This document shows positions 8,579 to 59,087 of a DNA stretch of 64,000 nt, in pieces. Positions within the stretch are counted from its first letter, which is position 1; each line of letters opens with the position of its first letter. The stretch comes from Betaproteobacteria bacterium (GTDB lineage Bacteria; Pseudomonadota; Gammaproteobacteria; Burkholderiales; JACQAP01): NCBI GenBank assembly GCA_016194905.1, contig JACQAP010000005.1:124001-188000 (forward strand). Direction: 5' to 3'. Both the position numbers and the translations under genes were made by a program. The notes below the pieces were generated by a model, which was not told the origin of the DNA, did not search any database, and saw only the letters and a program-made list of their open reading frames with translations.

Positions 8579-9520
8579 TTAACCCGCGAGTGCCTTGGGC
8601 AAGGGAAATGTCACCCGTTCCGCGATACCTTCCAGTTCCCTGACCGGCCCGGCGCCCAACGAATTGAGCCGGGCGATGACCGCCTGCACCAGCACTTCCG
8701 GTGCGGATGCACCGGCCGTCACGCCCACCACCTTTTTCCCTTCCACCCATTCGGGCTTCAGATCGGCGGCGTTGTCCAGCATGTAGGCGGGCACGCCGAG
8801 ATTGGACGCGACCTCGCGCAGCCGGTTGGAGTTCGAACTGTTCGGCGAGCCGACGACGATCAACACATCGCACTGCTTCGCCAGCACCTTGACCGCATCC
8901 TGGCGGTTCTGCGTGGCATAACAGATATCGTCTTTTTTAGGCCCGAGGATTCCAGGGAAGCGGCGCCTGAGCGCCTCCGTGATCGAACGTGCATCGTCCA
9001 CAGATAACGTAGTCTGGGTCACGAACGCCAGGTTGTCCGGATTCTTGACCTTGAGGCGTTCGACGTCCCGGATGGATTCCACCAGATACATGCCGCTGCC
9101 GACCTGCCCCACGCCCTCTATCTGACCCATGGTGCCTTCCACCTCCGGGTGGCCCGCGTGGCCGATCATCACGATTTCGCGTTGGCCGTCATGCATCTTG
9201 GCCACTTCGACGTGCACTTTGGTTACCAGCGGGCAGGTGGCATCGAATACGTTCAACTTTCGCGCTTCGGCGTCGCGACGGACGGTCTGCGACACGCCGT
9301 GCGCGCTGAAGACCACCGTCGCTCCTGCGGGTATCTCGGCAAGATCCTCCACGAACACCGCTCCCTTGGCACGAAGGTCGTCCACGACATATTTGTTGTG
9401 AACGACTTCATGGCGCACGTAGATCGGCGCTCCGTGCAGCTTGAGGGCGCGTTCGACGATTTCGATGGCACGGTCTACGCCGGCGCAAAAACCGCGGGGA
9501 TTGGCGAGCAGGACTTCCAT
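8579..9520 (-). CDS. ispH: 4-hydroxy-3-methylbut-2-enyl diphosphate reductase
   Basis: 313 residues, the usual IspH (LytB) length. Cys12 in [14 protein letters not shown], the Cys in DATCPLV and the Cys in [11 protein letters not shown] are the three ligands of the iron-sulfur cluster. [11 protein letters not shown] is the conserved substrate-pocket segment. The enzyme makes IPP and DMAPP in the last step of the MEP isoprenoid pathway. It lies at the end of the ribF-ileS-lspA series, an arrangement common in proteobacteria, here with a sulfite-oxidase-like gene and a repeat element between it and lspA. Confidence 0.96.
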
Positions 9521-9604
9521 GGTGTGAGCAGGTTGATCGAGGCCTGAATTATACGCCGCCGCATTCCCTAGATTGCCGTCGGCCTCTATAGATCGCCGCC
9601 GTTT

Positions 9605-10249
9605 CTATAAATTGCCTTCAGCGAAACGTTCTTCCTTCCACGGATCGGCCTCGTTGTGATAACCGCGCACTTCCCAGAAACCGGGCCGGTCTTCTTCGTG
9701 GAATTCGATGCCGGTCAGCCATTTGGCGCTCTTCCAGGCGTAGCGCTTCGGCACCACCAGCCGGACCGGTCCGCCGTGCTCGGCCGGCAGCGGCTTGCCG
9801 AACACACTGTGCGCAATCATCACGTCATCGTCGAGCAACGCCTCAAGCGGCAGATTGGTGGTGTACTCGTCGGCACTATGCAGAGTCACGAATCCGGCCT
9901 TCTCCAGCGGACGGGCGCTCATGATGATTTCCCGCGCCGGCACACCGCGCCAGTTCATGTCGAGCTGCGACCAGCGCGTGACGCAATGAAAATCGGTGGT
10001 CAGGTCGACTTGCGGCAATTCGTTGAATGTCTTCCAGCTGTAGTCGAGCTCCTCCTCGACCAATCCGAACACACGCAGATTCCAGCCGGACAGCGAAACC
10101 TTGGGCTCCAGACCCAGATCGAGCACCGGGAAGTCATGTACTTCCTTCTGTCCCGGCGGAATGCGGGGATTGTCACTCGCCCTGGACGGCTTCGCGCCGC
10201 GTTTGGCCAGGGCAATCTTGGCTTCCATCATCTTCACCCAGTTCGGCAT
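9605..10249 (-). CDS. Sulfite oxidase-like molybdopterin oxidoreductase
   Basis: 214 residues. The central segment DLTTDFHCVTRWSQLDMNWRGV contains the Cys that ligates molybdenum in the sulfite oxidase family. GGPVRLVVPKRYAWKSAKWLTGIEF is the conserved cofactor-binding end. It is a compact one-domain form with no heme or dimerisation domain and no obvious signal peptide, so cytoplasmic location is likely. The natural substrate is not known. Sulfite is only one possibility, although a large sulfur cluster lies 5 kb away. A GGGAT site precedes the ATG. The gene sits between lspA and ispH, next to an inverted-repeat element 29 bases upstream of its start. Confidence 0.85.
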   Translation of the reverse strand: MPNWVKMMEAKIALAKRGAKPSRASDNPRIPPGQKEVHDFPVLDLGLEPKVSLSGWNLRVFGLVEEELDYSWKTFNELPQVDLTTDFHCVTRWSQLDMNWRGVPAREIIMSARPLEKAGFVTLHSADEYTTNLPLEALLDDDVMIAHSVFGKPLPAEHGGPVRLVVPKRYAWKSAKWLTGIEFHEEDRPGFWEVRGYHNEADPWKEERFAEGNL

Positions 10250-10278
10250 TTTTCTATCCCTAACTCTAAATCTCTTTT

Positions 10279-10453
10279 ACCGCAAAGGCGCAAAGACGCA
10301 AAGGAAACGCAAAGAAAACCAATGCCATTTATTCGCAAGAAACATTGGGCGCTACGAACTGTCGAGAAACTGTAACTGCGTCGCGCACGTGGTTCGTCCG
10401 AGTAATGTCCTGCCCTCCTTTGCGTTTCCTTTGCGTCTTTGCGCCTTTGCGGT
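10279..10453. repeat. Gene-less inverted-repeat element (MITE-like), CGCAAAGR arms
   Basis: Two perfect 36-bp inverted arms lie at 10279-10314 and 10418-10453, separated by 103 bases with no convincing gene. Each arm begins ACCGCAAAGG and is made of tandem CGCAAAGR octamers. The element starts 14 bases after the lspA stop on the minus strand and ends 29 bases before the next start codon. Its arms are of the same kind as those flanking the GxxExxY gene at 13724-14204. As RNA it would fold into a very stable long hairpin between the two genes. Confidence 0.85.
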
Positions 10454-10467
10454 GAAGGTTTTGAACT

Positions 10468-10954
10468 TCAAACTGCTTTGACACGGGACCGACGAAAACT
10501 ATCCCAGATCAATAGCGCGGCGCCGACTGTTATGCAGGAATCCGCCAGGTTGAATGCCGGCCAGGGGTCGAGCAGCCTGGGGCCGCCAGGCCAGCGCAGC
10601 AATACGAAATCCACCACCGCGCCGTATACCGCGCGATCAGTGAGATTGCCCACGGCGCCGCCGAGGACCAGTGCAAGGGAGAAACACAGAAAACGATCCG
10701 ATCGATGTTTGATCATCATGGTGATGATCAGGACCGAGGCGACCAGCGCGATGACCAGGAAAAAATAACGCTGCCAGCCCGAACCCGATGCAAGGAAACT
10801 GAACGCGGCACCGGGGTTGTAGGCCAGCACCAGTGTCACCACCGGCGGTAACACATCGAGGGATTGACCCGGAACCAGCGCGCGCTGGATGACGAATTTC
10901 GTGATCTGATCGAGCACCACGAGCAACGCGCTGAAACCAAGCCAGGTGCCCAGG

Positions 10955-10962
<8 letters not shown>
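10468..10962 (-). CDS. lspA: Lipoprotein signal peptidase
   Basis: 164 residues with four predicted membrane helices. The catalytic Asp regions of aspartyl signal peptidase II are seen: [19 protein letters not shown] and WPAFNLADS. It removes the signal peptide from prolipoproteins at the lipobox Cys after lipidation. Its start overlaps the end of ileS by 8 bases, the standard coupling of these two genes. Several lipoproteins that would be substrates are encoded at 53-61 kb. Confidence 0.96.
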
Positions 10963-13711
<2,749 letters not shown>

Positions 13712-13723
13712 TCTAAAAAACCC

Positions 13724-14204
13724 TTAACCGCAAAGGCGCCAAGGCGCAAAGGTAACGCAAAGGAAATCGATCAGAAATTGTTCACAACGCGCTTTATTCC
13801 GTGCCGCATTACATCTACTCTGAAATTCAGCAGCATTTCAAGTTTCAGTCCTGTCATCTTCAAGTAAGTCAAAAGCTGGGCAGTATGAATGGGCTCGAGA
13901 GCATCTACACACTTCAACTCTAGGATTACCCCTTCATTGACAATCATGTCGACCCTATAGCCTTCCTCTATCCGAAGATCCTTGTACACAACCGGGATAG
14001 GCACTTGTCTCCGAGGCTGAAATTTCCGTAGGCCGAGTTCCCAAGCAATGCTTTCTTCATAGGCCGACTCCAATAGTCCGGGCCCCAGAACACGATGTAC
14101 TTCTATCGCGGCTCCAATCACCTCATTGCTGATGTGATCCAATTCTTCGGGCGTCATTTGAATTCCTTCGCGTCCCCTTTGCGCCTTGGCGCCTTCGCGG
14201 TTAA
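13724..14204 (-). mobile_element. Inverted-repeat-bounded GxxExxY cassette
   Basis: Two 44-bp arms, 13724-13767 and 14161-14204, are inverted copies with 39 of 44 positions identical. Both read TTAACCGC(A/G)AAGGCGCC outward-in and contain CGCAAAGG-type octamers. The 387-bp GxxExxY gene fills the space between them, with 3 bases to spare at each end. The right arm lies inside the 3' end of ribF and the left arm directly abuts the ileS leader. The 481-bp unit therefore looks inserted in the ribF-ileS junction. No transposase or obvious target-site duplication is seen. Confidence 0.65.
13771..14157 (-). CDS. GxxExxY family protein, PD-(D/E)xK-like
   Basis: 128 residues. The naming motif is present as GLLESAY (G27, E30, Y33). 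Asp70 in GYRVDMIV and E80-L81-K82 in VILELKCVD fit the D...ExK core of the PD-(D/E)xK nuclease fold, followed by QLLTYLK with Q94. The family is widespread, often multi-copy, and has no assigned function. The start codon overlaps the ribF stop (ATGA), and the ribosome-binding site AAGGAATT is provided by the inverted-repeat arm. The arms hug the gene on both sides, which suggests they travel with it. Nuclease activity is an inference from the motif. Confidence 0.88.
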   Translation of the reverse strand: MTPEELDHISNEVIGAAIEVHRVLGPGLLESAYEESIAWELGLRKFQPRRQVPIPVVYKDLRIEEGYRVDMIVNEGVILELKCVDALEPIHTAQLLTYLKMTGLKLEMLLNFRVDVMRHGIKRVVNNF

Positions 14205-15119
14205 GAAGTAGTCCCTGGCAGCGGCCGCGTCCGTATCCATCTGCGCCACCAGCGCATCGATGCCGGCGAACTTCTGCTCGTCACGCAGCTTCTTCATGAA
14301 GCGCACGCCGATGCGCCGCCCGTATATGCGTCCGTCGAAATCGAACAGGTGGACTTCCAGCGTCGGGCGGCCGCGTTCCTTGACGGTGGGACGCACACCG
14401 AGACTCGCCACGCCCGGCAACGGCTCTGTTCCGAGGCCGTCCGTTTCAACGACAAAGATTCCCGCCAGCGGCGCCTTGGACCGCTTCAACTGCACGTTTG
14501 CGGTCGGGTAGCCGATTTTCGCGCCGAGTTTGTCGCCATCCACCACCCGGCCGGTGATCGAATAAGGCCGGCCGAGCAGTTGTTGTGCGCCAGCGAGATC
14601 GCCCTTCTCCAAGCGGGCGCGGATTGCCGTGCTGGAAACCCGTTCGCCGGCCGTCGCGACACTGGTCATGGCTTCGACCTCGAAGCCCGACTGGGAGGCC
14701 AGCGCCTTCAGCAGCGTGAAATCACCCGACCGTCGTGCGCCAAAACGGAAATCGTCACCGACCAGCAGCCAGCGCACCGCCAGGCCGTCGTGCAAGATCC
14801 GGGAAACAAATTCGTTCGCAGCCAGTTGCGCGAGCGCGTAATCGAAGCGGCAGACGTACACCCGGTCCACGCCGCAATCACGCAGGAGTTCCAGCTTTTC
14901 GTGCAGCGAGGTCAGCCGCGCCGGCGCCTGATCGGGCGCGAAAAATTCCTGAGGCTGGGGCTCGAAAGTCATCACCGCAACCGGCAGCTCGTGCCGGCGC
15001 GCCACTTCCGCCAGACGCGCGATCATCGCGCGGTGCCCGAGATGGACGCCGTCGAAATTGCCGATAGTTAGCGCGATAGGAACGTCTGCCCGCGCCGGGA
15101 TACCCCGAAAGACTCGCAT
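14154..15119 (-). CDS. ribF: Bifunctional riboflavin kinase/FMN adenylyltransferase
   Basis: 321 residues from ATG 15119 (MRVFRG). The frame is open 75 bases further, but this start fits the family. The N-terminal FAD synthetase domain has TIGNFDGVHLGHRAM. The C-terminal kinase domain has GRPYSITGRVVDGDKLGAKIGYPTANV. It converts riboflavin to FMN and FAD. The last 16 or so residues, from LTAKAPRRK onward, are encoded by the right arm of the GxxExxY element and are probably not native. The stop overlaps the GxxExxY start. The canonical order ribF-ileS-lspA is kept apart from this insertion. Confidence 0.95.
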   Translation of the reverse strand: MRVFRGIPARADVPIALTIGNFDGVHLGHRAMIARLAEVARRHELPVAVMTFEPQPQEFFAPDQAPARLTSLHEKLELLRDCGVDRVYVCRFDYALAQLAANEFVSRILHDGLAVRWLLVGDDFRFGARRSGDFTLLKALASQSGFEVEAMTSVATAGERVSSTAIRARLEKGDLAGAQQLLGRPYSITGRVVDGDKLGAKIGYPTANVQLKRSKAPLAGIFVVETDGLGTEPLPGVASLGVRPTVKERGRPTLEVHLFDFDGRIYGRRIGVRFMKKLRDEQKFAGIDALVAQMDTDAAAARDYFLTAKAPRRKGDAKEFK

Positions 15120-15200
15120 GTCCAACCGACCAAAAGCCTGAATTCTAGCGGCTTTCGGCTCGCCGGAGCGCGGTTCTAAACGATCCGGACCCAAACCGGA

Positions 15201-15593
15201 TCAGTTGGAGCGGGACAAGTGCTGGTCGAAGGCCCAGTCGGCAATTGCGTTGGTGAGGTCTTCCGAGTCGCCGATTGCGCTCGTAACGTCGATCCGCATC
15301 ACCGGATGCTGCTTGCGGATATCGTCGAGCAACCTGGGCAGATCTTCCCTGAGATGCCCGCCCTGAGCGAGGAACAGCGGGACCACGGTGATGCGCCCGA
15401 CGCCCTCGCCGGCCAAACCAGCAATGGCCGATTCAAGGGTTGGCTGCATCAATTCCAGAAACGCCAGTTCCACGCGAATGCCGGGTTGCTTGTGGCGCAG
15501 CCGGGCCACGATCCGGCGGAACGGCTCCGCCCACGACGGGTCACGGGCACCGTGGGCAAAAAGAAGGATTGCCGAAGCCGGCGCCTGGCTCAC
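15201..15593 (-). CDS. cbiX: Sirohydrochlorin chelatase, short CbiX/SirB form
   Basis: 130 residues, the size of the single-domain chelatases. FAHGARDPSW near residue 13 and PLFLAQGGHLREDLP near residue 77 carry the two conserved His residues that bind metal. It is expected to insert iron (or cobalt) into sirohydrochlorin. Siroheme is the cofactor of the sulfite reductase at 26.7 kb, and cobA at 22.1 kb supplies precorrin-2. A dehydrogenase for the middle step is not in the window. The gene lies 28 bases after the cysA stop, on the same strand. Confidence 0.88.
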   Translation of the reverse strand: MSQAPASAILLFAHGARDPSWAEPFRRIVARLRHKQPGIRVELAFLELMQPTLESAIAGLAGEGVGRITVVPLFLAQGGHLREDLPRLLDDIRKQHPVMRIDVTSAIGDSEDLTNAIADWAFDQHLSRSN

Positions 15594-15621
15594 TTCACAG
15601 TCAGGAGAAGTTGCATCCCGG

Positions 15622-16695: not shown

Positions 16696-17563
16696 GGTCT
16701 TGCTCCTTGTCCGTCGCGGCCCTGGCCCCGACGACACTCTTGAGTACCAGGGTTACCAGCGCCAGCAACGCCAGCAGGGAAGCCACCGCAAAGGCGGCGG
16801 CAAAGTTGTATTCGTTGTAGAGGATTTCGACGTGCAGCGGCATGGTATTGGTGCTGCCGCGGATATGTCCGGACACCACGGATACCGCCCCGAATTCGCC
16901 CATCGCCCGCGCATTGCAGAGGATTGCACCGTAGAGCAATCCCCATTTGATGTTCGGCAAGGTCACGCGGGAGAAAATCTGCCAGCCGCTGGCGCCCAGC
17001 ACCGCCGCCGCCTCTTCCTCTTCGCTGCCTTGCGCCTGCATCAGCGGAATCAGTTCGCGGGCGACGAAAGGAAAAGTAACGAAAATGGTGGCGAGCACGA
17101 TGCCCGGAACCGCGAAGATTACTTTCAAGTCGTGCTCGGCAAGCCAGGGGCCAAGCCAACCCTGCAGGCCGAAGATCAGAACGTAAATCAGTCCCGAAAC
17201 CACCGGCGAAACCGAAAACGGCAAGTCGATCAAGGTAATCAGCAGATTCTTGCCGCGGAACTCGAACTTGGCGATCGCCCACGCAGCGGCGACACCGAAC
17301 ACGACGTTGAGCGGTACGGCGATCGCTGCGGCGATGAGCGTGAGCTCGATCGCGGACAACGCATCCGGCTCGACGATGGAGGCGAAGTAGACCCCCACGC
17401 CTTTTCTCAGTGCTTCGCAGAACACCGAAATCAGCGGCACGAACAGGAACAGCGTCAGGAACGCCAGCGCGAGGCCGATCAGGGTCCAGCGCACCCACAC
17501 CGGTTCCTGCGTGGCGCGCACGCCGCGTCCCGCGGCGTCGAGGGGAAGCGCAATGGAACTCAT
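16685..17563 (-). CDS. cysW: Sulfate ABC transporter permease CysW
   Basis: 292 residues with about six membrane helices. The inner-membrane-component loop is seen in [30 protein letters not shown], the EAA motif that contacts the ATPase. The ending [19 protein letters not shown]...[13 protein letters not shown]-like segment is typical of CysW. It sits 10 bases downstream of cysT and overlaps cysA. Confidence 0.95.
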
Positions 17564-18410: not shown

Positions 18411-19020
18411 GCGTACCCCGGATGGCTGCCTTGCTCTTGCGCACGGCGCGATATCGACTCGATCTCACGCGTCGGCTCGCCCAGGAAACGCCCCTGCAGC
18501 AGATCGGCCCCGGCGCGTACCCCTGCAGACATTTCCTGTTCGGTTTCGACGTCTCTGACCAGCAACGTAGCGCCGAATCGATGAATCGCGTCTACCAGCG
18601 CAGGCATTCCGCCACAAGACTTCAACTGACCCGCTCCCAGCCTGACGAAATCGGGATAGAGGCTGCCGAGTTCCGCCATCCAGCCCTCGTTTTCCCCGCC
18701 GTGATTGATGGCGATGCGATAACCCCTCGAGCGATGATTGACCATCACATGCTTCAGGAACCGCCAGTCCCGGTTCACCTCGGCCGGGATTTCGATCACG
18801 ACACGAGCGGTTTCCACGCCGATCAGGTCGAGCACTTTTTCAAAAGACGGCCATGGCCGTCTTTCACGCTTTCCAGCAGCCGCGCCTGCACGGCCACGAC
18901 CAGGTTCTGGCGACAATGGAAAAAATGACCGACAATCCAGCCATCCGCCGAGCGCTGCAACGGATAATCGGTGGCGGCTTGTATGCGCGCCAACGCGTCC
19001 TTGTCTGCAAGAAACTCCAT
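18404..19020 (-). pseudogene. EAL-domain-like protein in the sulfate transport operon, frameshifted
   Basis: Two frames together encode one protein. The N-terminal frame (19020-18823) begins MEFLADKDALARIQ and ends soon after VKDGHGR. A second frame continues PWPSFEKVLDLIGVETARVVIEIP to 18404 and has the later strands of an EAL domain (VVIEIP, YRIAINHGG, DFVRLGAGQLK, LLVRDVETEQE, GADLLQGRFLGEP). The switch falls at a perfect 22-bp palindrome (18843-18864). Where the catalytic EAL triplet is expected (after GWIVG) the sequence reads HFF, so even an intact protein would probably lack phosphodiesterase activity. It lies between sbp and cysT, six bases after the sbp stop. A sequencing error cannot be excluded. 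Confidence 0.75.
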
Positions 19021-23235: not shown

Positions 23236-24507
23236 TTATTCGATGAGTCCGGCGGCAACGGTATTGTTGCTGGTCTCGTCGATGACGATGAAACTGCCGG
23301 CGGCCCGATTCCGGCGATAGGGTTCGAACGCGACAGGCTGCGCGGTCTTGACCGAAATGCGGCCGATGTCGTTCAGCGCGAACGTGTCGGCCGATTCCTG
23401 CACCAGCGTGTTGACGTTCATCCGGTACTGCGGGGACCCGAGCAACGCCTTGACCACCCGGGTACCCTGCTTGATCAGGTAGCGCCGGCTGCGATTGAAG
23501 GGTTCGGTCGCCAGCCAGCACAGGGTCGCCTCGAATTCGCGCGCCACGACCGGTAACGTCCCGGTTGCCGCCAATACTTCGCCGCGCGAGATATCGAGCT
23601 GGTCTTCGAGCACGACCGTTACCGACTGCGGCGCCTGTGCCCGCTCGACAGTCCCGTCGAAGGTGCGGACCGTACGGACTCGCGAAGTCTGCCCGGACGG
23701 CAGCACGGTAATAGCGTCTCCGATACCGATGCTTCCGGATTCGATCCGGCCGGCATAGCCGCGCGCGCCTTCCACGCCACTGTCTCCCGGTCTCGACACC
23801 AGTTGCACCGGGAAAAAGAGCTGCCCGTGCACGGCGGAACGCGCCACTTCGGCGCTCTCGAGTATTTCCAGCAGCGTCGGTCCGCGGTACCACAACAACC
23901 TGTCGCCACGCCCGACGACCATATCGCCCTGCAGCGCCGACATCGGCAGCGCGTCAACCCGATAGAAATCGAGGTCGCGTACAAAACCATCGAAGGCTTT
24001 GCTGATGTCGTCGAATACCTGCCGCGAATAATCCACCAGGTCCATCTTGTTCACCGCCAGCACCACGTGCGGAATGCGCAGCAGGCTGGCGATATAGGCA
24101 TGACGGCGCGACTGCGTCAGCAATCCCTTGCGCGCATCCACCAGCACGATCGCCAGATCCGCGGTCGAGGCCCCGGTCACCATGTTGCGGGTGTACTGCT
24201 CGTGCCCGGGCGTATCGGCGATGATGAACTTGCGCGACGGCGTGGCGAAATAGCGGTAGGCCACATCGATGGTGATGCCCTGCTCGCGTTCCGCGAGCAG
24301 CCCGTCGGTCAGCAGCGAAAGATCGATTCCAGTTTGACCGCGACGGCGGCTGGATTTCTCGATGGAGGAAAGCTGGTCCTCGAATATCGCTTTGGTGTCG
24401 TACAGCAGCCGCCCGATCAGCGTGCTTTTGCCGTCGTCGACGCTGCCTGCGCTGGTGAAGCGCAGCATGCCGGTATCCACGGGAGACAGGGTTTCGATCG
24501 CTGACAC
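23236..24507 (-). CDS. cysN: Sulfate adenylyltransferase subunit 1 (GTPase)
   Basis: 423 residues from GTG 24507, one base after the cysD stop. An ATG at 24468 is possible. The GTPase motifs are GSVDDGKST, DTPGHEQY and NKMD, followed by EF-Tu-like beta domains. CysN uses GTP hydrolysis to drive ATP sulfurylation by CysD. There is no fused APS kinase (CysC) domain, in line with an APS reductase downstream in the pathway. Confidence 0.94.
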   Translation of the reverse strand: MSAIETLSPVDTGMLRFTSAGSVDDGKSTLIGRLLYDTKAIFEDQLSSIEKSSRRRGQTGIDLSLLTDGLLAEREQGITIDVAYRYFATPSRKFIIADTPGHEQYTRNMVTGASTADLAIVLVDARKGLLTQSRRHAYIASLLRIPHVVLAVNKMDLVDYSRQVFDDISKAFDGFVRDLDFYRVDALPMSALQGDMVVGRGDRLLWYRGPTLLEILESAEVARSAVHGQLFFPVQLVSRPGDSGVEGARGYAGRIESGSIGIGDAITVLPSGQTSRVRTVRTFDGTVERAQAPQSVTVVLEDQLDISRGEVLAATGTLPVVAREFEATLCWLATEPFNRSRRYLIKQGTRVVKALLGSPQYRMNVNTLVQESADTFALNDIGRISVKTAQPVAFEPYRRNRAAGSFIVIDETSNNTVAAGLIE

Positions 24508-24508
24508 G

Positions 24509-25432
24509 TTAAAAATATCCTTCCTTCTTGCGCAGTTCCATCGACGCTTCCGACGTCTGATCGTCCATCCGCGTCGCGCCACGTTCGGTAATGCGGGTCG
24601 TCGCCGTTTCGACGATGATTTCCTCCGCGGTTGCCGCGGTGGATTCCACCGGGCAGGTACAGGTCATGTCGCCAACGGTACGAAACCGCACTGAAATCGT
24701 TTCCACGGTTTCGCCCGCCTTCGGCCGCACGAGCTCCGACACCGGCAACAATCCGCCGGGCCTGCGCACCACTTCGCGCCGATGCGCGTAGTAGATCGAG
24801 GGAACCGCCAGCTTTTCGCGGTCGATGTACTGCCAGACGTCGAGTTCGGTCCAGTTGCTGATCGGAAACACGCGGATGTTTTCACCCTTGTGCACCCGCG
24901 TGTTGTAGAGACTCCACAACTCCGGGCGCTGGTTCTTCGGATCCCATTGGCCGAATTCATCCCGGAAAGAAAAGATACGCTCCTTCGCCCGCGATTTTTC
25001 TTCGTCACGCCGTGCCCCGCCGATGCAGGCATCGAATCCATGCTCGGCAATGGTGTCTAGCAAGGTCACCGACTGATGCACGTTGCGGCTTTCGTCTTCC
25101 GAACGCAACCTCACCCTGCCGGCTCGAATCGAATCTTCCATGTGGCCGATGACCAGGCGCTCGCCGAGTTCGGCGGCACGCGCGTCGCGAAAAGCGATGA
25201 CCTCGGGGAAGTTGTGCCCCGTGTCGATGTGCAGCAACGGGAACGGAAACCTCCCGGGACGGAATGCCTTTTCGGCCAGCCGCAGCATTACGATCGAATC
25301 CTTGCCACCGGAGAACAGCAGCGCCGGATTGCTGCATTCCGCCGCCACTTCGCGCAGGATGTGAATGGCCTCCGATTCGAGCCAGTCGAGATGGTTGATG
25401 CGCGTCGAGTCGATCTGCAGCACGGCACTCAC
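24509..25432 (-). CDS. cysD: Sulfate adenylyltransferase subunit 2
   Basis: 307 residues from GTG 25432, which overlaps the cysH stop as GTGA. This is about the family length. The frame is open 126 bases further into cysH, but the core begins LDWLESEAIHILREVAAE. The PP-loop SGGKDSIVMLRLAEKAF, LHIDTGHNFPE and GGARRDEEKSRAKERIFSFRD are the adenylating motifs. It forms APS from ATP and sulfate together with CysN. Confidence 0.95.
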   Translation of the reverse strand: MSAVLQIDSTRINHLDWLESEAIHILREVAAECSNPALLFSGGKDSIVMLRLAEKAFRPGRFPFPLLHIDTGHNFPEVIAFRDARAAELGERLVIGHMEDSIRAGRVRLRSEDESRNVHQSVTLLDTIAEHGFDACIGGARRDEEKSRAKERIFSFRDEFGQWDPKNQRPELWSLYNTRVHKGENIRVFPISNWTELDVWQYIDREKLAVPSIYYAHRREVVRRPGGLLPVSELVRPKAGETVETISVRFRTVGDMTCTCPVESTAATAEEIIVETATTRITERGATRMDDQTSEASMELRKKEGYF

Positions 25433-58876: not shown

Positions 58877-59032
58877 AGGCACGAAGAATTCTTTTTTTAT
58901 ACCCCCTTGAGGGGTACACAAGGGAACACGAAAGAGAACGAAGAATAAGCATGTACAGATTTTCCTCGTCTTTGCGCCTTTGCGTAGACAAGTGTTTTCT
59001 TGCTCTGCCTTTCTTCGTGTTCTTCGTGCCTT
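58876..59032. repeat. Degenerate inverted-repeat element with CACGAAGR units
   Basis: AAGGCACGAAGAA at 58876-58888 is repeated in inverted form at 59020-59032. The right arm extends as tandem CACGAAG units. Inside lies one array of the other family (CGTCTTTGCGCCTTTGCG at 58968-58985) and a small TACCCC/GGGGTA hairpin near 58899-58916. The reading frames here give only translated repeat sequence. The element abuts the rraA remnant and ends 55 bases before the dioxygenase gene. Confidence 0.65.
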
Positions 59033-59087
59033 CGTGTTGAGATTTCCGGTTTGCTTTGCGGGTTTTCAACAGCAGGAGCCGATCACG

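Follow-up and report, generated by a model that had tools for sequence, protein, structure and literature searches.

The window, by which we mean the whole 64,000-nt stretch of DNA analysed, carries on its minus strand the gene order ribF, GxxExxY, ileS, lspA, oxidoreductase, ispH. The spacer that separates the lspA stop (position 10468) from the oxidoreductase start (10249) is occupied by a gene-less palindromic element; lspA and this molybdopterin oxidoreductase gene are both encoded on the minus strand. The first-pass annotation of this DNA had placed the element next to lspA in the ribF-to-ispH series, beside a gene not usual there; the gene order agrees with this, and the unusual gene (9605-10249) encodes an Oxidored_molyb domain (PF00174). 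Its nearest model is MsrP, yet it reaches only 69 bits where the cut-off is 207. The oxidoreductase gene is present between ispH and lspA in the genome of the window (G000) and in two of the relatives compared (G002 and G003), and is absent there in a third (G001). The features discussed below are, in window coordinates:

10276..10456, no strand: whole gene-less palindromic element, an inverted repeat between the lspA stop and the Oxidored_molyb gene start
10279..10314, plus strand: left arm of the focal element, four CGCAAAG-type units with spacings of 8, 8 and 11 nt, no T on the plus strand
10315..10417, no strand: interior of the focal element, 103 nt, without a gene of its own
10418..10453, minus strand: right arm of the focal element, its minus-strand sequence is that of the left arm
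~13723..13768, plus strand: GxxExxY cassette, left arm; its units are spelled nearly as in the gene-less copies
13771..14157, minus strand: GxxExxY gene (PDDEXK_3; TIGR04256, PF13366), encodes the protein proposed as partner of the arms
~14160..14205, minus strand: right arm of the GxxExxY cassette, extending into the 3' end of ribF
15577..15620, no strand: short spacer, empty in G000; G002 and G003 have differently spelled arm elements there
24506..24510, no strand: spacer, empty in G000, G001 and G003, with an arm element in G002

The focal element has the paired, perfect 36-bp arms and the lack of a gene that were first described for it: positions 10279-10314 (plus) and 10418-10453 (minus) are inverted and match at 36/36 bases, with 103 nt between them, and extending each arm by three bases leaves 38/39 identical (97%). 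Arms that lack T on one strand cannot hold a stop codon in any of the six frames. Folded as single-stranded DNA, the stretch 10270-10462 gave -59.1 kcal/mol (z -10.4; 0/200 shuffles equal), and by this prediction it would form a long hairpin. No Rfam family exceeded its gathering score in window positions 9000-15500, where the sole match listed was weak and lay outside the element, and no relative of the focal interior was found among 40 compared gene-less copies of G000.

The arms belong to a family dispersed over G000 (4.75 Mb, 36 contigs), in which a short variable interior lies between inverted arms of 7-nt units (C[AG]C[N][AG]AG) iterated at intervals of ~8-11 nt. Allowing <=2 mismatches, ACCGCAAAGGCGCAAAG occurred in G000 at 45 forward and 38 reverse places, and its reversed control at 0 forward and 3 reverse; with 83 places as compared with 3, the focal element is one of many gene-less copies, as had been supposed. 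The genome-wide search for paired arms that the first-pass annotation proposed yielded 32 inverted arm pairs read in G000, many of them 100-240 bp apart. Twenty-nine of the 32 were gene-less (119-235 bp), two contained a GxxExxY gene (the cassette in the window, on C5, and C16:51840-52414), and one, of 1584 bp, enclosed a Trypsin_2 gene (C17:95340-96923, L050), possibly through gene capture. The counterpart of this last locus in G002 (L249) is ~1.2 kb shorter and contains arm elements. At least two arm sets coexist in G000, one ACCGCAAAGGCGC[AG]AAGG-like (24 read) and one AACGCAAAGGCGCAAAGGACGCAAAGG-like (8 read). The window also holds a lone three-unit arm (59013-59036, minus strand) and a lone ACCGCAAAGG at 16785, both without a partner, and these unpaired arms are possibly remnants.

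The GxxExxY gene of the window is a full member of its family, scoring 136.5 bits against TIGR04256 (curated cut-off 35) and 135.7 bits against PF13366 (PDDEXK_3; cut-off 22). Shared unit architecture, and a spelling close to that of the cassette arms, place the focal element in the same arm family as this cassette, in keeping with the first-pass annotation. A cassette stands at the same address, between ribF and ileS, in G000, G002 (where it is broken) and G003, with an arm spelling near each genome's own, and it is absent from G001, which has 61 bp at that address. In the window, the last codons and the stop of ribF are supplied by the cassette arm (14154-14205). Taken together, the focal palindrome and the copies that flank the nuclease gene suggest that the nuclease is linked to a mobile repeat system not described before.

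Comparing the region downstream of lspA among relatives, a check likewise proposed at the outset, revealed an empty site: the focal spacer of G003 (89% identity) measures ~32 bp and has no element. The same spacer in G002 (79% identity) holds another pair of arms, and the interior between them differs too. In G001 neither the element nor the oxidoreductase gene is found there. A fixed RNA hairpin in all relatives is ruled out at the focal site by its absence from G003. Other addresses provided more empty/filled contrasts between species, including the two spacers listed above, and some element addresses were common to three or four species; shared filled sites are over-represented in this comparison, since most loci of the other genomes were picked for holding an element. 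Opposite window positions 18910 and 19025, contig C447 of G003 has ~206 and 226 extra bases, which are unlike arm elements.

Where two species shared an element address, the two arms of an element were more alike (mean 0.869) than orthologous arms were (0.791). The within-element similarity was the higher one in 29/33 comparisons, which share elements and are not independent events (32 were used in the interior analysis). The perfect arms of the focal element may therefore reflect homogenization and not youth. They had initially been read as a sign of recent insertion or of gene conversion; the 36/36 identity behind that reading stands, and youth is neither supported nor contradicted, there being no duplication in G000 and an occupied spacer in G002 as well. 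The interiors of gene-less elements at shared addresses outscored all 200 shuffles in 4/25 comparisons, and in 5 further ones all except 2 to 8. The GxxExxY alleles at shared addresses were synonymously more divergent than their neighbors (pS 0.85 vs 0.23-0.42; 0.68 vs 0.26-0.41; 0.79 vs 0.57; 0.87 vs 0.69-0.73; neighbor values quoted without overlapping antisense reading frames, as judged by eye). Since two of the three same-address GxxExxY sets are clades in the tree, this excess may come from near-relative allele replacement or from local hypermutation. A cassette swap at one address was also considered: the tree does not group L115 with L118 as sisters, but a clade of the two is not rejected by the AU test (p = 0.258), and a swap is not claimed. 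The turnover at shared addresses is explained best by replacement with related copies, local hypermutation being an alternative.

Evidence of movement was found in G001, a sister species, where 20 copies could be aligned end to end, with sharp ends outside the arms (CCTAAAAACCGC ... TTTTTCTAGG; outer ends CCTARAAA) and no evident similarity beyond. Exact 5-bp direct repeats occurred at a single register in 14/20 of these copies, as compared with 2.2/20 for mispaired flanks; the next best register gave 3/20, 6-bp repeats fell to 3, and the target is of the type WTNAW. One member found ~40 places in G001, nearly all at 70-93% identity (40/92 candidates scored); among them, longer copies bounded by these ends and containing a gene were not seen. 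Arms in the spelling of the mobile family accompanied 0/4 of the GxxExxY genes found in G001. The relatives of G001 are too diverged to show clean empty sites with a single target copy.

The other populations look different. A scan of every offset from 2 to 25 gave no register shared by the copies at which the target was duplicated, either in G000 (24 and 8 copies) or in G002 (25 copies), the most being 3/25 for 4 bp. Gene-less interiors with a relative, counted over the copies in the fetched loci, numbered 5/40 in G000 (three of them in one locus), 17/32 in G001, 0/30 in G002 and 0/27 in G003. The G001 copies thus have duplications and related interiors where the others do not, which points to a younger family in G001, and G000, G002 and G003 seem to hold old populations in which the arms were kept and the interiors lost. 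The focal element itself has features of a miniature inverted-repeat transposable element (MITE): terminal inverted repeats, no gene, a length under ~600 bp and many copies. Its lack of a gene had been read as expected of a MITE-like, non-autonomous derivative. Movement of the family is borne out by the 5-bp duplications of G001; derivation from the cassette is not, the interiors in G000, G002 and G003 being mostly unrelated.

The association between GxxExxY genes and arms extends well beyond the window. In G000, 5/5 GxxExxY genes lie between inverted, iterated-unit arms, and the spelling differs from gene to gene. Within the genus and G037, the inverted-repeat score reached 30 in 12/14 GxxExxY genes and unit arms were recognized by eye in 13/14 (a count that leaves out the third G037 gene, at a contig end of C19, and was scored with other gap penalties than the wider sample); the score of L116 was 26, and that of L119, the exception and a gene interrupted by a stop, was 23. 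Nine more cassettes from the order (one each in G030, G067, G069 and G091, two in G048, three in G038) were all armed as judged by eye (9/9). Arms of this kind go beyond the CRCNRAG spelling: some cassettes build them of other units, namely ACAGGAT (L304, G048 C13), CACGAAT (L120, G037 C74) and CGCAGAT (L300, G038 C25).

For a wider sample, the best 80 of 585 confirmed loci were taken from many bacterial phyla and archaea, and 3/80 at contig ends were dropped. At least two units stood on both sides of the gene, in the right orientation, in 50/77 of these best-80-of-585 loci, as compared with 0/574 controls in the same loci; at least three units on both sides were found in 33/77, and 27/77 fell short of two units per side. 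When units in the wrong orientation were counted, 13/77 loci also had two per side. An inverted-repeat score of at least 30 was likewise obtained in 50/77 of the best 80 of 585, against 3/493 controls. Doubled palindromes occur in some loci (e.g., L128 and L196), and eight plasmid records contain GxxExxY, at 31 to 50% identity.

Each genome has its preferred spelling of the unit: ACCGCAAAGGCGC[AG]AAG in G000, ACCGCAGAGGCGC[AG]GAG in G003, ACCACAGAG[AG]CACNGAG in G001 and, among the matches listed, ACCGCAAAGACGCAAAG in G002, ACCGCCAAGACGCCAAG in G048 and ACCGCAGAG[AG]CGC[AG]GAG in G069. GxxExxY cassettes share the arm spelling of the gene-less copies in G000, G002, G003, G048 and G069. When cassette arms were scored under the position matrices of seven repeat populations, those of G000, G002, G048 and G069 scored best in their own genome, and those of G003 tied with G069, whose spelling is identical, at -4.4. 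The G030 cassette arms fit the G003 repeats best, in a matrix test from which the G030 population was absent. Across phyla, unit spelling tracks the GxxExxY tree (34 changes; shuffled mean 40.0; 0/300 shuffles as low), as tested on 62 rows with the unit labels of nine set by eye.

Gene and repeats also co-occur among the 100 genomes of the order that we surveyed, in which GxxExxY exceeded the cut-off in 11, with weak matches in 2 more. At least 13 matches to ACCRCNRAGNCRCNRAG, counting both strands, were present in 10/11 genomes with GxxExxY as compared with 3/89 others (Fisher p = 1.8e-10; by family, 7/7 vs 2/44, p = 3e-7), where the threshold of 13 was chosen after the counts were seen and related genomes are not independent. 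The reversed control of ACCRCNRAGNCRCNRAG gave <=5 matches in any of the 100 genomes. These counts depend on fragmented assemblies (350 contigs in G002, 580 in G003). The one genome with the gene that the pattern missed is G091: no match was found there, and its arms begin GCC, a start invisible to the pattern. Three genomes (G017, G064 and G085) are repeat-rich (at least 13 matches) with no GxxExxY over the cut-off.

To our knowledge, no function has been assigned to the widespread GxxExxY gene family. We aligned 65 proteins (54 from the 77 stop-free loci that remained of the best 80 of 585 once 3 with stops had been set aside, and 11 proteins of our own genome and the order), and used this set for the tree and for a structure model (mean pLDDT 95.2, pTM 0.87). 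Residues E30, D70, E80 and K82 are invariant in all 65, the last three in keeping with the D...ExK motif of PD-(D/E)XK nucleases. Foldseek gave no match to the model at E <=0.001, its best being SSO0001 (2.3e-3), a Cas4. A second structural aligner gave high places to PD-(D/E)XK enzymes, among them SSO0001 (Z 9.2, rmsd 3.2, 98 aligned), BamHI (Z 7.6, rmsd 3.5, 110 aligned), SwaI (Z 7.5, rmsd 3.6, 115 aligned) and Hjc (Z 7.0, rmsd 3.1, 86 aligned). On the strength of the model and of Pfam, GxxExxY is a predicted PD-(D/E)XK nuclease family; most of the Z scores are middling and do not fix its function. TnsA was not among the structural matches listed, which is uninformative either way, and no solved structure with a sequence relationship was found, the single match being at E 0.4. 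The dN/dS was 0.12 and 0.19 in the two unsaturated comparisons out of five. PADLOC returned weak Cas4 matches only (E 5e-4 to 0.03), and PHROG had no match to GxxExxY. The literature has little on the family: the relevant excerpt of PMC8934634 only names GxxExxY, as a domain reported beside a reverse transcriptase, and PMC12085832 and PMC9756366 mention GxxExxY and PF13366, respectively. A repeat flanking GxxExxY was not found in the accessible portions of the open-access literature naming the family, nor were the unit strings found in open-access literature, where strings broken across lines would escape.

We read the focal element as a non-autonomous palindromic mobile repeat whose arms GxxExxY probably recognizes and cuts, driving spread and replacement of the copies (probability roughly 0.55). 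The iterated units read like binding sites, which the palindrome would set face to face as two groups. GxxExxY, as the proposed mobilizer, would recognize the unit spelling of its own system and cut at or near the arms, either as a duplex or as a cruciform, this being a candidate activity. Repair from another copy could then replace arms and interior together, homogenizing the spelling within a genome while keeping the address. Reaching new sites would take a cut-and-join step, performed by GxxExxY or by another enzyme, of which the 5-bp duplications in G001 are the trace; GxxExxY as the cut-and-join enzyme is weakened because G001 has no matching cassette. Spread combined with replacement of occupants would leave addresses conserved and alter the arms, interiors and nuclease alleles found at them. 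A broader generalization, which we put forward tentatively and hold to be possible, is that the repeats form a class found throughout bacteria and archaea, in which a lone GxxExxY nuclease, and not a transposase, recognizes the iterated units of the long arms, spreads dozens to >100 gene-less copies per genome and re-occupies fixed addresses through homing-like conversion, with concerted turnover of arm spelling, interiors and nuclease alleles inside each genome.

The strongest of the alternatives, though in our judgment an unlikely one, is that the palindromes are ordinary MITEs of a separate transposase, e.g., of the DDE type, with GxxExxY as a passenger or as a user of the elements for its own spread. 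The exact WTNAW duplications and CCTARAAA ends of G001 are the kind of trace expected of a classical transposase, the four GxxExxY genes found in G001 include no cassette in the spelling of that family, some repeat-rich genomes have no such gene, and in G000 the Trypsin_2 gene, too, lies between two arms. A passenger, however, is not expected beside the same arms in 50/77 loci (best 80 of 585) from many phyla, nor is it expected to track the unit spelling, and G001 revealed no longer, transposase-bearing copy among the 40/92 candidates scored.

It is improbable that GxxExxY is instead a defense or selfish nuclease for which the repeats serve as marked self or as decoy sites, without being moved by it. 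The PD-(D/E)XK fold near Cas4, BamHI, SwaI and Hjc, the PADLOC matches to Cas4 and the low dN/dS would suit such a role, but the PADLOC matches are all weak and PHROG gave none, and neither the replicated copies with target duplications nor the arms flanking the gene itself would be explained. A very improbable reading is that the hairpin serves the host, as a terminator or another RNA or DNA structure selected with compensatory changes. Addresses common to several species, arms that change together, a strong predicted fold and the frequent position of elements near the end of the adjacent reading frame are what such a function might produce, and an RNA role may exist at single sites; against this stand the polymorphic occupancy of the focal and other spacers, the ~40 dispersed copies of G001 with target duplications in 14/20 of those aligned, the same units flanking one nuclease family across phyla, and the lack of an Rfam match to the element. 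A REPIN system driven by a RAYT (Y1 HUH transposase) is hardly credible and its membership is ruled out for G000, for although inverted doublets, a variable spacer, own flavors and a cognate gene by the same repeat are shared with REPINs as the seen part of PMC3116915 presents them, and although all four genomes have Y1_Tnp genes, none of the four in G000 (0/4) has paired arms in the 2.4-3.9 kb around it (one has an isolated three-unit run nearby, L295:156), as compared with 5/5 for GxxExxY.

These data link GxxExxY to a specific DNA repeat in many phyla, and so offer a testable substrate for the family. If GxxExxY moves or converts the repeats, a transposase-free nuclease would account for a class of dispersed palindromes, and the wholesale shift of spelling between sister species would let protein-DNA co-evolution be followed as a natural experiment. 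Should GxxExxY be only a passenger, the repeats still are a mapped cause of variable spacer length and of altered gene ends, as in ribF.

Among known systems, PD-(D/E)XK homing endonucleases and free-standing homing genes offer one comparison. The likeness lies in a small nuclease gene, a fixed address and a fast allele turnover that is consistent with conversion at cut sites; here, in contrast, there is no intron or intein, most copies are gene-less, and cutting is putative. Bacterial MITEs, such as MITEAba12 as far as the available part of PMC6382973 describes it, resemble the family in being short and gene-less with terminal inverted repeats, and in the duplications and many copies of G001. 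Unlike with MITEs, a parent transposon encoding a transposase between such ends was not found in G001 (40/92 candidates scored), and in G000, G002 and G003 it is the arms that are conserved and the interiors that mostly are not. Closest in behavior is the REPIN-RAYT system (Bertels and Rainey 2011, PMC3116915), in which REPINs are described, in the sections seen, as extragenic inverted doublets that form a hairpin and come in several flavors per genome, each by a gene with the same repeat; inverted arms, variable spacer, predicted hairpin, flavors and an adjoining gene are all found here. The REPIN palindrome has a GTAG or CGTC tag at one end, according to the consulted portion of PMC3733652, whereas the arms of our family, judged by eye, mostly begin ACCRC, AACGC or GACGC. 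In place of a Y1 HUH transposase, the proposed partner here is a PD-(D/E)XK nuclease; the arms are built of iterated 7-nt units, the copies in G001 are bordered by 5-bp duplications, and the association includes archaea.
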